From a virus, in IMG/VR virus record IMGVR_UViG_3300037264_002168, positions 1 to 39,602 of that record: DNA of 39,602 nt; one strand, given 5' to 3'. Shown one piece after another: positions 4,551-26,411 of this stretch. Numbering within the stretch: position 1 is the stretch's first letter; every line of letters begins with the position of its first letter. Below the pieces are notes generated by a model. It did not search any database. It was not told the origin of the DNA and saw only the letters and a list, made by a program, of their open reading frames with translations. The translations under genes were made by a program, and so were the position numbers.

Positions 4551-4912
4551 TGGCATACGGAATAGATAAAATCACTGCTGGAGATGGATCGGTAACATCA
4601 GGAGAATTTCAAGATAGAGTTTTTGATGGCGGCAATCCTAAAAAACTAAAACAGGCTATTAAAGTAGAGATTACCTTTGAGCCTCTTACCTCTGCTCAAT
4701 CCGTTACTCCAAAATATAAATTAGACAGAGCAGCAAGTTTTACCAGCGGAAGCGCGGCAGGAGAAGATGAAACTTCGGTAGAAGTATATATCAATACTCT
4801 TTTTTATGAGGCAGAATGGGGATTTACTGTAGCAAGTACAGATGGTTCATTCCCGAAGATTACTGGACTTAATTTTGTTTATGATACGCTTGAAGAAGAA
4901 AGTGGGGAATAA
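4550..4912 (+). CDS. Tail hub-like protein, C-terminal part of split gene
   Basis: The 120-residue beta-rich protein starts with MAYGIDKI and ends in an acidic tail (EEESGE). It continues the strand pattern of the protein ending at 3921, so the two are probably halves of one hub protein separated by the HNH gene. The GGAGG site inside the HNH gene and the TAATG overlap couple its translation to that gene. The next gene overlaps by TAATG at 4912. Whether the halves assemble into one domain cannot be seen from sequence. Confidence 0.6.
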   Translation: MAYGIDKITAGDGSVTSGEFQDRVFDGGNPKKLKQAIKVEITFEPLTSAQSVTPKYKLDRAASFTSGSAAGEDETSVEVYINTLFYEAEWGFTVASTDGSFPKITGLNFVYDTLEEESGE

Positions 4913-5598
4913 TGACAGATTTTCAGGATTTACAAAAAAAAGAAAGACCAACGGTCAACAGAGAGAGAATTAGCAAACGTGACATTAAGCCTCTTGAGGT
5001 GCAATTTCGCTTACAGACTTTTTATGATCCCACGGATAATACCTATAAATTCAGGGATATTAATGGAAATTCAATTTTTATCATTGATCCAAATACGGGA
5101 ACCTTAACTTTTTCTGCTCCAACAACATTGAGTGGTGCGTTATCATTTACAGGAACGACAACATTTAATTCACTTGTTCGGGGATTATGGCCGGAAATTG
5201 AAATTATATTAGCCGCAGAAACAAATGACGGATTTTATACGGGAAATAATAGTTATGAATTTTGCGGACCAGCGGCAACTCAATATGTAAAAGTACGAAT
5301 GAATAGTACCGAATGGGATATGGATGTCTATGATCTCTATTTTGAAATGATTGCGGGGGGTGATAGCGGAGGTGCATTAACAGCCCAGATTTATAATGTG
5401 ACGGATAGTGCGGCGGTTACGAATACAGAAATTACGGGAGGAACAGCCGATGCTTGGACTCGTGTACGAAGCACAACGCCATTTACCCTCGCAACGGGAG
5501 TAAAAGAATATGCGGTGCAATATAAACGGACAACACCAGACACAGGGTATCCTTCTATGGGTAAGGCAGCAATTATCGCACGACTAAAAGATTTATAA
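4912..5598 (+). CDS. Virion structural protein, tail fibre-like
   Basis: The 228-residue protein has a charged N-terminal 35 residues. A phage-fibre type segment follows (FRDINGNSIFIIDPNTGTL, then repeated TLSGALSFTG strands at 75-95), and then a beta-sandwich-like C-terminal domain. The D-NG-I-I-D-P-TG motif is common near the start of fibre and structural repeats. It is translationally coupled to 4550-4912. The role is inferred as tail or fibre; I do not recognise a specific family. Confidence 0.55.
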   Translation: MTDFQDLQKKERPTVNRERISKRDIKPLEVQFRLQTFYDPTDNTYKFRDINGNSIFIIDPNTGTLTFSAPTTLSGALSFTGTTTFNSLVRGLWPEIEIILAAETNDGFYTGNNSYEFCGPAATQYVKVRMNSTEWDMDVYDLYFEMIAGGDSGGALTAQIYNVTDSAAVTNTEITGGTADAWTRVRSTTPFTLATGVKEYAVQYKRTTPDTGYPSMGKAAIIARLKDL

Positions 5599-18458: not shown

Positions 18459-18473
18459 AAACATAGTACCTTG

Positions 18474-18538
18474 AAGCGGATTGGGAATGAAATTTATAAC
18501 TGAAAAGTTCTGCGCAGGCTAACTTTCCCAATCCACTT
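18474..18538 (+). ncRNA. Structured leader element before 18566
   Basis: GGATTGGGAA (18478-18487) pairs perfectly with TTCCCAATCC (18525-18534), extended by AAG/CTT across one mismatch. Inside, AAGTT/AACTT encloses CTGCGCAG. The element sits in an otherwise gene-free 107-nt gap, upstream of a purine-rich ribosome site for ATG 18566. It is probably a folded mRNA leader; its class is not known to me. Confidence 0.5.
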
Positions 18539-18565
18539 GAGGGTAGCAAGAAAGAGAGGGGGTAT

Positions 18566-18913
18566 ATGAGTTATTTTCACGATGAAAATGAAATAACAGT
18601 ATGTGGTTGTCACGATACAGATGTTCAACTTATATGGACATTTGCATTTCCATATCACGAGTTTTGGTGTCCTGCGTGTGGTGCTCATTACGGAATGGTG
18701 GGTGCAGGACGAAACGCAAAATGGAATTGGCGAATACACAATCAATATGTAAAAGATTTAGAACAGTCACGAAGGTTTTTAACCGCAAATGGGATACTTT
18801 GCTGTGCAATGTTTAAGTATAAAGGCACATATATTAAACCATTAGAAATGCCAGAAAAATTACGAAAATATTATGAACGTGAAAGTAAAAAATGGAAATA
18901 TAGAATAGTTTAG
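18566..18913 (+). CDS. Zinc-binding hypothetical protein
   Basis: The 115-residue protein has a possible zinc site in residues 13-40 (VCGCHD and WCPACGAHYG), a central aromatic region, and a basic C-terminus. GAGAGGGGG precedes ATG 18566. Its stop is TAG, rare in this genome. No family recognised. It precedes the rtcB leader RNA and probably shares its transcript. Confidence 0.6.
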   Translation: MSYFHDENEITVCGCHDTDVQLIWTFAFPYHEFWCPACGAHYGMVGAGRNAKWNWRIHNQYVKDLEQSRRFLTANGILCCAMFKYKGTYIKPLEMPEKLRKYYERESKKWKYRIV

Positions 18914-18915
18914 CA

Positions 18916-19123
18916 CCTTTCTCATCTGTAGAAAGCTGGAAGTGACTGACAAGGATAGGTTAGGTTTGCCAGCCGAAGTGTCCCGATTTGTGGCAACAGA
19001 ACGGGGATTAGATAAAAAATTATCTAAATGTAGGGTGACTATACGAGTTATAGAACTATGGCTTACATGGGTCTATCTTGTCAAATCCCTACCTTCCAGC
19101 TTTGTGGAGAGGAGAAGAGGAAT
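18916..19123 (+). ncRNA. Candidate structured RNA with pseudoknot, leader of rtcB
   Basis: A 210-nt gene-free gap. AAAGCTGGAAG (18932-18942) pairs with CTTCCAGCTTT (19093-19103). GACAA-GATAG (18948-18958) pairs with CTATC-TTGTC (19073-19082). TTGCCA (18966-18971) pairs with TGGCAA (18991-18996), and CCCG in its loop (18982-18985) pairs with CGGG (19002-19005), a pseudoknot. There are hairpins at 19008-19027 (8 bp) and 19039-19053. CTTTCT (18917-18922) can compete for AGAAAG, and CCTTTCTC may cover the GAGAAGAGG ribosome site. This suggests a riboswitch-like or substrate RNA. Confidence 0.6.
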
Positions 19124-20320
19124 ATGCAAGTAAATACAGAAGGAAATATACCAGTTAAATTATGGCTTGATGATATTGAAGATAATGCGATGGAACAAGT
19201 AAAACATCTATCTATACTTCCATTTGCATATCATCATATTGCCATCATGTCTGATGCTCATCAAGGATATGGTATGCCTATTGGTGGAGTTTTAGCTACT
19301 ACTGATGTGGTAATTCCCAATGCAGTAGGTGTGGATATTGGGTGTGGTATGTGTGCGGTTAAAACTTCACTGACTGAACTTCCAGTAGAAAGATTAAAGG
19401 AAATCATGGGTAAAATTAGACAAACTATCCCTGTTGGGTTTGCTCATCATAAAGACAGACAAGATATGAAGTTAATGCCAGAATTGGATAGAGAAAAAAA
19501 TTATATAACAGACGCATTCAACCATGGTTCTGGAATTGTATCAAGAGAATATGATAAGGCATTGTATCAAATAGGTACTCTTGGTGGAGGAAATCATTTT
19601 ATTGAAATCCAAAAAGGGTCAGATGGTCATATTTGGATAATGATACATTCAGGTTCTCGGAACTTTGGATTGCAAATTGCAGATTATTACAATAAAAAGG
19701 CAGTTGAATTAAACGAAAAATGGCACTCAAAAATTCCAGAAGAATGGGAGTTAGCATTTTTACCAATAGATAGCGATGAAGGGCAAGCATATATCAAGGA
19801 AATGCAATACTGTGTAGAGTTTGCTTTGGCAAATAGAAAATTAATGATGGAACGAATTGCTGATATTTTTGACAAAAATACTTCCGCTCCATTTATTGAT
19901 ATGAATGAAATGATAAATATTGCTCATAACTATGCTTCCCTAGAACATCACTTTGGAAAAGATGTATGGGTTCACAGGAAAGGAGCAACTCTGGCACAAG
20001 TAGATACCATAGGCATTATTCCTGGGTCGCAGGGAACACATAGTTATATTGTAAAAGGAAAAGGCAATCCAGACAGTTTTGAATCCTGTTCTCATGGTGC
20101 TGGTCGGAAAATGGGAAGGAAACAAGCACAACGGACATTAAACCTTGAAGAAGAAAAAAAACGACTGGATGATTTAGGGATTGTGCATGCGATACGGGGA
20201 GTACAGGATTTAGATGAAGCACCAGGGTCGTATAAAGATATTGATATAGTAATGAAAAACCAACAGGATTTAGTAGATGTTCTCGTTGAATTGACACCAA
20301 TGGGAGTTATAAAAGGATAA
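19124..20320 (+). CDS. rtcB: RNA ligase RtcB
   Basis: The 398-residue protein joins RNA ends bearing 2',3'-cyclic or 3'-phosphate to 5'-OH ends with GTP and Mn2+. Family signatures are present: SDAHQGYGMPIGG near 43, VDIGCGM with D71 and C74, GGGNHFIE 154-161, HSGSRN 175-180, HRKGAT 284-289, and SHGAGR with the guanylylated His at 324. The length matches cellular RtcB. ATG 19124 was chosen for the GAGGAGAAGAGG site; earlier starts lie in the structured leader. In phages RtcB is thought to repair tRNAs cut by host anticodon nucleases. The abnormal tRNA-like element in this genome makes that context interesting. Confidence 0.93.
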   Translation: MQVNTEGNIPVKLWLDDIEDNAMEQVKHLSILPFAYHHIAIMSDAHQGYGMPIGGVLATTDVVIPNAVGVDIGCGMCAVKTSLTELPVERLKEIMGKIRQTIPVGFAHHKDRQDMKLMPELDREKNYITDAFNHGSGIVSREYDKALYQIGTLGGGNHFIEIQKGSDGHIWIMIHSGSRNFGLQIADYYNKKAVELNEKWHSKIPEEWELAFLPIDSDEGQAYIKEMQYCVEFALANRKLMMERIADIFDKNTSAPFIDMNEMINIAHNYASLEHHFGKDVWVHRKGATLAQVDTIGIIPGSQGTHSYIVKGKGNPDSFESCSHGAGRKMGRKQAQRTLNLEEEKKRLDDLGIVHAIRGVQDLDEAPGSYKDIDIVMKNQQDLVDVLVELTPMGVIKG

Positions 20321-20394: not shown

Positions 20395-20420
20395 ACGCAG
20401 TATCCATGAAAGGAGTTTTT

Positions 20421-21290
20421 ATGTGCAACTTTTACTCTTGTATTGTTGATAAAAAATTGAGAATTTTAGATGCCATAGACATAAATGACAGCCATGAGGC
20501 AACTATTGATAAATACAAACTCAACGATAATAAATTAGAAGAACGGGATATTGTGAGGCTTGAAGTAAATCCAGATATTGAGAAATTGACCAAAACATTT
20601 GATAAAAAGTTTTGGACATATAAAGTAGACGAACAAAAAACACTCCCCTCATGGTACACGGAAAATGAGAAGAAGATACAGAAGTTAGTCTTTGATAAAC
20701 TCCATGATGATATATGGCAGAAATACATTTTAGTAGATAAGAAAATAGAACAATCTACTCACAGAATTAGTGTTTGTAAAAATTCTCATATAGAAAAACT
20801 TATACACGATATTGGTTGGATGGAAGGCTCCAGTACAGTGGAAGTGATGAGAGACTCCAGTACAGTGGAAGTGATGAGAGACTCCAGTACAGTGAAATGG
20901 ATGAGAGGCTCCAGTACAGTGAAATGGATGAGAGGCTCCAGTACAGTGAAAGCGATGGAAGACTCCAGTACAGTGGAAGTGATGAGAGACTCCAGTACAG
21001 TGAAAGCGATGGAAGACTCCAGTACAGTGGAAGTGATGAGAGACTCCAGTACAGTGAAATGGATGAGAGACTCCAGTACAGTGAAAGCGATGGAAGACTC
21101 CAGTACAGTGGAAGTGATGAGAGACTCCAGTACAGTGAAATGGATGAGAGACTCCAGTACAGTGGAATGGATGGAAGACTCCACACAAGCCATTACCTAT
21201 AACGGAATGAAATTTATTAAAAAACAAGAAGGGGGTAAAACCGTCATTATTGACCGAAGCGGAGAAAAAGTAAAAGTAAAGATTGGATAA
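20421..21290 (+). CDS. 27-bp tandem-repeat protein (SSTV nonapeptide repeats)
   Basis: ATG 20421 has AAAGGAG spaced 5 nt upstream and is preferred to ATG 20406. The 289-residue protein has a charged N-domain of about 135 residues (EVNPDIEKLTKTFDKKFWTYKV, LPSWYTENEKKIQK). Thirteen nonapeptides of the form (D/G)SSTV(E/K)(V/W/A)M(R/E) follow, then a 38-residue C-domain (AITYNGMKFIKKQEGGKTVIIDRSGEKVKVKIG). The regular repeat suggests a beta-solenoid. Function unknown. The gene's C-domain resembles short beta domains that follow such repeats in other phage proteins, as far as I recall. Confidence 0.75.
   Translation: MCNFYSCIVDKKLRILDAIDINDSHEATIDKYKLNDNKLEERDIVRLEVNPDIEKLTKTFDKKFWTYKVDEQKTLPSWYTENEKKIQKLVFDKLHDDIWQKYILVDKKIEQSTHRISVCKNSHIEKLIHDIGWMEGSSTVEVMRDSSTVEVMRDSSTVKWMRGSSTVKWMRGSSTVKAMEDSSTVEVMRDSSTVKAMEDSSTVEVMRDSSTVKWMRDSSTVKAMEDSSTVEVMRDSSTVKWMRDSSTVEWMEDSTQAITYNGMKFIKKQEGGKTVIIDRSGEKVKVKIG
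20826..21176 (+). repeat. 13 tandem copies of a 27-bp unit
   Basis: Each unit begins GRCTCCAGTACAGTG. Twelve bases (TCCAGTACAGTG) are invariant in all 13 copies, while four codons vary: GAA/AAA, GTG/TGG/GCG, AGA/GAA, GGC/GAC. Variant order shows a higher-order 81-bp period. The array has no stop in several frames on either strand, producing long spurious frames. Confidence 0.95.
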
Positions 21291-22928: not shown

Positions 22929-23119
22929 AATCTATTGCTATTGTCTGTTGTTGGCGCTGTAAAAATAAGAAAAGTCAATTATTCCGTTGTGTTGATAAGG
23001 AAGGAAGTATGACTGATGATTATATATGTAAAGACTGCAAAGATTATTCTGGATTGAAAGCACCAGAGATAGGAAATCAGTCAAGAATATATTTCAAAAA
23101 GGAGACCCATGACAAATAA
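22925..23119 (+). CDS. Small zinc-ribbon protein between groES and groEL
   Basis: The 64-residue protein has CCWRC (residues 8-12) and CKDC (about 35-38), a zinc ribbon. It overlaps groES by ATGA and groEL by 11 nt, so all three are translationally coupled. The overlap suggests a chaperonin-linked task, but nothing in the sequence identifies it. Confidence 0.65.
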   Translation: MKSIAIVCCWRCKNKKSQLFRCVDKEGSMTDDYICKDCKDYSGLKAPEIGNQSRIYFKKETHDK

Positions 23120-24692
23120 ATACTCTCTCACAAAATTCAACGAACAAGCGCGAAAATCCCTTCTTGATGGCGCAAAAGAAGTTTATACTGCCGTTTCCAC
23201 TACTCTTGGAGCGCGGGGAAGAAATATCACTATTCATAATCATTATCAGACAAAATCAATTCACGACGGAGTTAAAGTTTCCCAGTCTATCAATCCAAAA
23301 GACGACTTTGAAAATGCCGGTGCTGAAATGTTGAAAGAGTCAGCGCAACGACAAGTTTCTGTCGCCGGTGATGGTACAACGCTTGCTATTATCTTAGGTT
23401 ATGCAATCGCCTCAGAAGCGGAAAAAATGGTCAATGCCGGTGTCAACCCTATGGCACTTCGGGCAGGACTTGAAAAAGGATGCGATCTTCTTGTTAAAGA
23501 GATTAAAAAACTTTCCACACCTGTTACTTCTAAGGAACAAAAAGTACAGATCGCTACTATCGCCAGTCAAAATAAGGAATTAGGTGAACTTATAGGCGAC
23601 ACTCTTCATAGGGCAGGAGTTGAAGGAGTCATTACTATTGAGGAAGCAATCGGATCAGAAACCTTTGTCGAACATAAAGAAGGAGTACAAATAGATTCAG
23701 GATTTAAGACGGATTATTTTATTACCAACCCTCACTCAATGACCGCGACGGTTTCAAAAGCGAAAATACTTGTCACTGATTATAAACTCAATGACATTCA
23801 TGAACTTGTGCCATTATTCAAAAACGTCATTGAAACAAACGGGGTACATAATATCGTCATTATCTCCGAAGACATAGAAGGGACAGTATTGGCGACCTTG
23901 GCTCAAAACAAAATTCAGGGGAAACTCAACACATTGGCTATCAAAGCCCCTACATTCCAACAGGAACAGGTCTTGCGTGATATTGCCACAATTGTCGGAG
24001 CTAAATTTATCTCCCAAGAGATGACGATAGATTTGAAGGAATTGACCATTGATGACCTGGGCTATGCAGACCAAGTTACCTCATCCCGCACCGCTACGGT
24101 CATCGTAGGGGGTGGAGGAAAGGATACCGCAGTCAAGGAGAGGATCGACTCAATCAAATCACAGCTAGAAGAAGAGGAAAACGAATTTAACAAACAAAAG
24201 TTACGAGAACGGTTAGCGAAACTTACTGGCGGGGTCTATGTCGTCTATGTCGGCGGGCAGACCGAGGTTGAAATGGTAGACCGAAAAGAGAGAATAGATG
24301 ATGCAATCCAAGCCACCCGCGCGGCAATGAAAGAAGGCATTATCCCTGGCGGTGAGATTGTCTTTTTAGGGATTGATAAAGTGTTAAAACCCAAGAATGA
24401 CGATGAAGATTATGCGTTTCGGATATTGAAGAATGCACTCAAAAAACCATTTGAAAAGTTAGTTGAAAACGCTGGATTTAATGCCGGACAATTACAAGAA
24501 CGATTATCAAAAGAACTTAAAGGAATGGGTATTGATGTTACCACAGGGGAAATAGTCAACATGGTAGAAAAAGGTATTATTGACCCTACTCTTGTCGCAA
24601 CCGAGGCGATTAGAAATGGAGTGAGTGTAGCAATCTCAATCATTTTGAGTGGCGGGACAGTATGTGAGATTGAAGAAGAAAAAGGAAAATAA
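23109..24692 (+). CDS. groEL: Chaperonin GroEL
   Basis: The 527-residue protein covers the full Cpn60 architecture. Equatorial motifs are TTLGARGRNI and AGDGTT with the catalytic Asp near 88; the apical domain spans about 190-375; RIDDAIQATRAAMKEG carries the second catalytic Asp. The C-terminal DPTLVATEAIRNGVSVA segment ends at EEEKGK without the Gly-Gly-Met tail of bacterial GroEL. The loop after GRN reads HNHYQTKSIHDG rather than the usual ...TITKDG. It is probably an active folding chamber specialised for phage proteins. GGAGACC lies before ATG 23109. Confidence 0.93.
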   Translation: MTNKYSLTKFNEQARKSLLDGAKEVYTAVSTTLGARGRNITIHNHYQTKSIHDGVKVSQSINPKDDFENAGAEMLKESAQRQVSVAGDGTTLAIILGYAIASEAEKMVNAGVNPMALRAGLEKGCDLLVKEIKKLSTPVTSKEQKVQIATIASQNKELGELIGDTLHRAGVEGVITIEEAIGSETFVEHKEGVQIDSGFKTDYFITNPHSMTATVSKAKILVTDYKLNDIHELVPLFKNVIETNGVHNIVIISEDIEGTVLATLAQNKIQGKLNTLAIKAPTFQQEQVLRDIATIVGAKFISQEMTIDLKELTIDDLGYADQVTSSRTATVIVGGGGKDTAVKERIDSIKSQLEEEENEFNKQKLRERLAKLTGGVYVVYVGGQTEVEMVDRKERIDDAIQATRAAMKEGIIPGGEIVFLGIDKVLKPKNDDEDYAFRILKNALKKPFEKLVENAGFNAGQLQERLSKELKGMGIDVTTGEIVNMVEKGIIDPTLVATEAIRNGVSVAISIILSGGTVCEIEEEKGK

Positions 24693-25795: not shown

Positions 25796-25955
25796 TTTTA
25801 TCCTGCTATAACAATCCAACTCTTGCTCTAACCCATTATGGACCGACAAGATAAGTTGCGATTGTTTTACCGTGGGCGTTGTCTATTGAGTTGAAGGAAT
25901 GTCTGAACCCATATATTTCTTCATTAGTCTGCGATAGGCGAGGCTCACGTTTGCG
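25796..25955 (+). other. Gene-free stretch before terminase; possible packaging site
   Basis: About 160 nt without a convincing gene lies just upstream of terS, where cos or pac sites are often found. CACG-TTTG-CGTG (25946-25957) is a small hairpin/dyad touching the terS promoter. No other repeat is evident to me. A packaging role is inferred only from position. Confidence 0.3.
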
Positions 25956-25970
25956 TGTTATAATAAAGTA
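25956..25970 (+). promoter_or_regulatory. Extended -10 promoter of terS
   Basis: TGTTATAAT (25956-25964), six bases, ATG 25971. A CACG/CGTG dyad overlaps its upstream edge and could be an operator. Confidence 0.75.
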
Positions 25971-26411
25971 ATGGCAAAAAAGTCAAATAAAAACGGTAGA
26001 CCTTCTAAATATGTATCAAAATATTGTAAAGAAGTCATCACATTCTTTGATATAGAACCTCATACCGTATCTTCAAAAGTAACGACCTATAAAAATGGAA
26101 CGACAATAGAAGAAGAAGTGGAAATAGCAAATGATCTCCCAACGCTTGCCTCATTTGCATCGAAGATAGGTATTCATAGAGATACACTTAATCAATGGAC
26201 AAAAAATCATAAAGAGTTTTCCGACGCTATAAAAAAGGCAAAGGAACTCCAAGAGAAGATTTTGGTCACTAATGGACTGAAAGGATTGTATAATCCGGCA
26301 TTCGCAATTTTCACTGCAAAAAATATTATTGGATGGAAAGATAGACAAGATATAACGAGTGATGACTCAAAATTAACAGGGCCTTATATATACATCCCAA
26401 AAAAAGAATGA
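25971..26411 (+). CDS. terS: Terminase small subunit
   Basis: The 146-residue protein has a GRPSKY start and a helix-turn-helix-like region (LPTLASFASKIGIHRDTLNQW, about 56-77). The FSDAIKKAKELQEKILVTNGLKGLYNPAFAIFTAKNIIGWKDR segment is typical of phage small terminases and DNA-packaging proteins. It recognises the packaging site and recruits the large subunit. It has a leaderless-type promoter. Its stop overlaps the HNH gene that separates it from terL. Confidence 0.8.
   Translation: MAKKSNKNGRPSKYVSKYCKEVITFFDIEPHTVSSKVTTYKNGTTIEEEVEIANDLPTLASFASKIGIHRDTLNQWTKNHKEFSDAIKKAKELQEKILVTNGLKGLYNPAFAIFTAKNIIGWKDRQDITSDDSKLTGPYIYIPKKE

Follow-up and report, generated by a model that had tools for sequence, protein, structure and literature searches.

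Organization of the rtcB locus

The window, by which we mean the whole 39,602-nucleotide stretch of viral DNA analysed here (IMG/VR record IMGVR_UViG_3300037264_002168), encodes a full-length RtcB RNA ligase, preceded by a gap without convincing genes that extends from the stop of the upstream reading frame at 18913 to the rtcB start at 19124. The sequence-only reading of this DNA had described the gap as gene-free and filled by a structured RNA, and both points are borne out. A 63-aa open reading frame at 18942–19133 has no obvious ribosome site, and a coding function was rejected because the lengths of the homologous regions show no 3-nt period (60/51/51). The region 18900–19140 (+ strand) folds at -79 kcal/mol, as compared to -56.3 ± 4.5 kcal/mol for dinucleotide shuffles (z = -5.0), with none of 200 shuffles matching it, and relatives described below show strong covariation. 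A promoter search ahead of the element gave nothing significant.

A structure scan across the whole window places the rtcB gap among the more structured sites, but it is not unique. The gap at 25800–25970, before a gene at 25971, is also structured (z = -3.7, 0/200 shuffles as good) and has no match in Rfam or to the tRNA-like models described below, and an inverted repeat at 18467–18545 (21-nt arms, 86% complementary, z = -2.4) lies before a DUF169-like gene at 18566. The reading frame directly after rtcB (20406–21290) contains 13 copies of a 27-bp repeat encoding an SSTVKWMRD-like peptide and has weak, uninformative Pfam hits; further rightwards, 23109–24692 codes for a chaperonin of the Cpn60/TCP-1 family, which MW202566 (a related phage) and MG269973 (a TM7 phage) also encode.

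The predicted fold contains the 11-bp closing helix (18932–18942 with 19093–19103), the second long-range helix (19030–19035 with 19087–19092) and the two hairpins proposed earlier, all with base-pair probabilities mostly above 0.9. The proposed pseudoknot, pairing UUGCCA (18966–18971) with UGGCAA (18991–18996), is permitted by the sequence but finds no support: it competes with the inner pairs of the 18987–19000 stem, and the region is conserved in no relative. The tRNA-like architecture that organizes these helices had escaped the sequence-only reading and became apparent here when relatives were compared. The parts of the element, with tRNA numbering for individual residues, are as follows.

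18913–18935, + strand: 5' strand of an extended helix, with CCUUUCUC opposite the rtcB Shine-Dalgarno sequence and GCA opposite the start codon region (base-pair probabilities)
18936–18942, + strand: 5' strand of the 7-bp acceptor stem, CUGGAAG (model R3; acceptor covariation in 154 relatives)
18943–18960, + strand: U8, G9 and D-arm, with stem ACU/GGU, loop GACAAGGAUA and G18-G19 at 18953–18954 (R3 alignment)
18961–19007, + strand: extra domain replacing the anticodon arm, with a hairpin at 18981–19006 and the putative pseudoknot (fold; no conservation among relatives)
19008–19027, + strand: hairpin UUAGAUAAAAAAUUAUCUAA next to residue 48, where a class II tRNA has its variable arm (fold)
19030–19092, + strand: T-arm with a 6-bp T-stem, 19030–19035/19087–19092 (base-pair probabilities, B-type alignment, R3)
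19036–19037 and 19082–19086, + strand: T-loop residues U54 G55 and C56 A57 A58 A59 U60, respectively
19038–19081, + strand: hairpin between G55 and C56 of the T-loop (ACUAUAC...GU), stem 19043–19047/19077–19081, which defines the B-type
19093–19099, + strand: 3' strand of the acceptor stem, CUUCCAG (acceptor covariation, R3)
19100–19127, + strand: 3' strand of the extended helix, with the rtcB ribosome site GGAGAGGAGAAGAGG and AUG (base-pair probabilities)
19124–20320, + strand: rtcB, RNA ligase, 398 aa (PF01139, E 2e-114, full length)

Identification of a family of related RNAs

Searches by blastn and nhmmer with the window element itself found no relatives. Weak matches in Lactobacillus plasmids were dismissed as AT-rich chance similarity beside parA, and a pattern based on the pseudoknot matched only protein-coding sequences by chance. 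A single-sequence covariance model yielded one distant relative, L013, that shares a common core, GUAGGGUGAC...GUCAAAUCCCUA, and a pattern built from this core matched 30 stretches in viral contigs, about two-thirds of which are true family members. The pattern-matched stretches have a common architecture: a stem is followed by GUGGCGGAAUAGGUAGACGC (a tRNA-Leu D-arm), then by a variable stretch and finally by a T-arm with a hairpin interrupting its loop. In the version carried by named phages the loop is uninterrupted and reads UGCAAAU. Two further T-arm patterns matched at least 120 and 66 stretches, giving at least 163 members in which a D-arm and a T-arm are both present, 107 of them with a plain loop (A-type) and 56 with the inserted hairpin (B-type). 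As recovery relied on exact T-arm patterns, 163 is a lower bound.

The window element belongs to this family. Covariance model R3, whose 32 B-type source sequences include neither the window nor L013, scores 68.7 bits (E 1.2e-15) at 18933–19104 of the window, as compared to 31.4 bits for L013. Genes for tRNA-Leu score weakly with the family models, at about 23–29 bits (23–28 bits with R3), the distant likeness to be expected for the family. The window copy has the 7-bp acceptor stem, a D-arm with G18-G19, the 6-bp T-stem and the T-loop residues by which members are recognized, and it also retains U8, A14, U48 and the T-loop insert. It has diverged in the D-stem (ACU/GGU), at position 15 (C) and in the base after the acceptor stem, and differs by an extra hairpin at the site of the anticodon arm and by the outward extension of its acceptor stem. 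The discriminator-like A, which is common in the family but not defining, is missing; in its place is a C at 19100, inside the extended stem.

A covariance search upstream of phage rtcB genes had been suggested earlier, and its outcome is divided: covarying relatives exist, but none of the 43 phage rtcB loci compared has a similar element directly upstream of rtcB. The earlier statement that the element matches no riboswitch or ribozyme class agrees with our scans, as Rfam 15 returned nothing at either gathering or relaxed thresholds. Rfam 15 likewise has no family matching the tRNA-like RNA, ARAGORN detects neither the window element nor its relatives, and searches of the open-licence literature turned up no description of the family, although one may exist beyond open-licence papers.

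Fold and covariation

The acceptor, D-stem, T-stem and T-loop-insert helices are all backed by covariation in relatives. The scan patterns fixed only T-arm letters, and the choice of members never involved the acceptor stem; the invariance of the T-loop and part of that of the D-arm are set by member selection and are left out of the evidence. Among 154 members, the acceptor stem pairs in 88–100% at each of its seven steps, every pair type being represented, and pairing falls to 64% at step 8; the base 3' of the stem is A in 62%. In the A-type alignment 97.6% of cells are paired and covariation is 0.61, as compared to 0.18 when shuffled and at most 0.14 when slid, with two-sided changes at 11 of 16 pairs. 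The corresponding B-type values are 96.6% of cells paired and a covariation of 0.54 (0.15 shuffled), and the T-loop-insert helix has 95.8% of cells paired with compensatory changes at three of its five pairs. A tRNA-Leu-like D-arm lies upstream, at a variable distance, in most of the A-type matches, and because the patterns held T-arm letters only, it turned up independently of the search.

There is no anticodon arm between the D-arm and T-stem, and variable hairpins occupy its place. In 38% of members (11% of shuffles), residue 48 is immediately preceded by the end of a stem of at least 7 bp, typically 9–21 nt after the D-arm, which is where the variable arm of a class II tRNA would lie. The variable domains otherwise differ widely and have no common structure, and members range from about 80 to 260 nt around the tRNA body. 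The 5' and 3' ends of the acceptor stem are free, and CCA is not encoded after it. We conclude, with near certainty, that the window element belongs to a widespread phage RNA family, absent from Rfam, with a class II (leucine-type) tRNA-like fold that lacks an anticodon arm.

Some variable domains contain other tRNA parts. In L170 the tRNA-like RNA at 4899–5107 has a complete tRNA-Lys(TTT) gene (4968–5040) within its variable domain, and lone canonical T-arms are present in the variable domains of L070, L150, L160, L233 and L289.

Comparison with known RNAs

The family shares with bacterial tRNA-Leu (RF00005) the 7-bp acceptor stem, U8, A14, G18-G19, T-loop residues C56 A57 A58, a 3-bp D-stem GCG/CGC with loop GAAUAGGUAGA, and an arm immediately before the T-stem. 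It differs from tRNA-Leu in the absence of an anticodon arm, in its 6-bp T-stem, in having G55 rather than U55, in its large variable domain and, in one subtype, in the T-loop hairpin; neither ARAGORN nor the Rfam tRNA model calls the window element or its relatives as tRNAs. The tRNA-like domain of tmRNA also lacks an anticodon arm and has variable helices instead, and the family resembles it in this respect; the D-arm, however, is tRNA-Leu-like and not tmRNA-like, and neither a tag reading frame (ARAGORN) nor an Rfam tmRNA match was found in the window or in relatives. Rfam ribozyme models have no match to the window that would indicate a self-cleaving RNA.

GOLLD and ROOL are ornate RNAs known from phages of Lactobacillales and from lake samples, and have been linked with tRNAs (PMC12286853). 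Members of the family described here are distinguished by their length of about 80–260 nt and their tRNA body, and the 16 loci scanned with Rfam have no GOLLD or ROOL match. In Listeria phage B025 (L098, 1255–1828) the Rfam motif mcrA lies downstream of the tRNA-like RNA in the same gap, and matches to the Listeria sRNAs rliG and rli62 that fall just short of the cut-offs lie upstream; all of these flank the tRNA-like RNA without overlapping it.

Distribution and genomic neighbourhood

Carriers include Listeria phages PSA and B025, Lactobacillus phages phiJL-1 and LP65, and Leuconostoc phage Ln-9, in which the copies are mostly unannotated; eight of 148 Lactobacillales genomes carry an A-type copy. 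The A-type copies are often located between a regulator-like gene and genes for HNH, TerS and TerL. The regulator-like gene is conserved and has no Pfam match; by our own reading only, it is ArpU/RinA-like. The B-type copies come mainly from environmental phages and from a few metagenome bins, and some are near ERF and SSB genes. Several genomes have multiple copies, including three in L160, two in a Brocadia bin, and seven in one 148-kb phage. A terminator-like hairpin follows 24 of the 107 A-type and three of the 56 B-type copies, and a conserved sigma-70 promoter upstream is no more frequent than in controls.

Relationship to rtcB

The earlier reading had proposed that the element may be a regulator sensing RNA damage, an RtcB substrate or a self-processing RNA. 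Its description as a structured RNA whose pairings could mask the ribosome site stands, but a specific tie to rtcB is not supported. A clear copy is present in only two of 36 other rtcB-phage records, about 1 kb (L013) and 15 kb (L031) from rtcB, and RtcB is encoded in only two of 49 B-type phage records; on these counts, adjacency to rtcB is particular to the window phage.

RtcB has a known role on tRNAs. A true tRNA gene lies within about 60 nt of rtcB in seven of 38 phage loci (a raw count in which two are duplicates of one phage), and such abutting tRNA genes are consistent with that role. They occur in the unrelated phages L006, L010, L014, L028, L030 and L038, often as tRNA-Pro(TGG), and L006 has an array of 20 tRNA genes near rtcB.

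In the window the closing helix runs outward, with 18913–18930 pairing to 19105–19127 and covering the Shine-Dalgarno sequence and AUG. The masking suggested earlier is thus predicted by base-pair probabilities and also by duplex comparison: the extended-helix duplex has a predicted energy of -19.0 kcal/mol (p ~0.02 relative to shuffles, 0.0005 relative to genomic 23-mers), although almost any run of pyrimidines will readily pair with a ribosome site rich in purines, and we therefore treat an rtcB switch as a hypothesis. In silico removal of 18913–18935 frees much of the ribosome site. The outward helix is seen only in the window and is not a family trait. Under such a switch, folding of the acceptor helix into the ribosome site and AUG would hold rtcB translation low, and a cut on the 5' side, by RNase P or by a nuclease that attacks tRNAs, would expose the site and turn on the RNA-repair ligase. 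That the tRNA-like RNA doubles as an rtcB translational switch, in the window phage only, is a possibility that we rate well below an even chance.

Possible functions and alternative explanations

The tRNA-like RNA cannot decode, and we infer that its body works as a mimic of tRNA and as a scaffold. Host RNase P, 3' processing and CCA addition may trim and stabilise the RNA, and the body could then engage tRNA-binding proteins or nucleases, or display the variable domain; we put forward this combination of host processing and mimic or scaffold action only tentatively. Charging is putative, as no CCA is encoded and A follows the stem in only about 62% of members.

A serious rival for the A-type copies, if on balance an unlikely one, is that they act in cis in the late or packaging region, for example as a processing site, antiterminator or packaging RNA, and not as mimics in trans. 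Their clustering directly behind the regulator-like gene, with the HNH, TerS and TerL genes following on the same strand, fits this well, as do the copies at genome ends in phiJL-1, Ln-9, B025 and PSA, but it does not readily account for the insert-bearing copies near recombination genes or elsewhere, for arrays of several copies, or for the terminator-like hairpins behind some copies. The same late-region location of most plain-loop copies speaks against an rtcB-specific leader, riboswitch-like or acting in RtcB autoregulation, to which the tRNA likeness would be secondary. The element does lie directly before rtcB, its predicted pairing masks the ribosome site and AUG, and tRNA genes sit beside rtcB in several other phages; nonetheless, with no adjacent copies at the other rtcB loci compared and rare co-occurrence, we rejected a family of rtcB leaders, and find the leader explanation improbable even here.

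Two further explanations address the tRNA likeness itself. YrlA-like Y RNAs are Ro60-binding tRNA mimics of rsr-yrl-rtcBA operons, and the window element resembles them in joining a tRNA mimic to a second domain and in having rtcB as its neighbour, as Y RNAs do in some bacteria. The existence of phage Y RNAs has also been proposed (PMC12282133, which cites Chen 2014). That the family consists of Y RNAs is nevertheless very unlikely: Rfam gives no match even at relaxed thresholds, the acceptor ends are free, and a search of 48 family-carrying records including the window found no phage-encoded Ro60/TROVE protein (the control genome was detected; the host might still encode a Ro60). We consider it scarcely credible that the element is a decayed tRNA-Leu gene or a functionless integration-site remnant, even though prophages frequently integrate into tRNA genes and the D-arm resembles that of tRNA-Leu. 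Strong compensatory change in the acceptor and T stems, the conserved hairpin in the T-loop, multiple copies per phage, and members in the lytic phages LP65, phiJL-1 and, with a weak score, P70 all argue otherwise.

Taken as a whole, the explanation that we favour, and think probable, is the family with its anticodon-less fold, acting as mimic or scaffold, together with a switch for rtcB in the window phage. A bolder version, plausible but short of an even chance, is that uncatalogued non-decoding tRNA mimics are common in phages, often in arrays, are matured and perhaps charged by the host, and act as decoys or scaffolds, with the window copy serving as a damage- or processing-sensitive rtcB switch.

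Many phage genomes may hold an unannotated tRNA mimic of this kind, and the family is probably far larger than the members recovered here. An anticodon-less tRNA mimic spread across phages would bear on the ways in which phages exploit or deflect host tRNA enzymes and tRNA-targeting defences, and as well-studied named phages carry it, mostly unannotated, the family is testable in cultured phage-host pairs.
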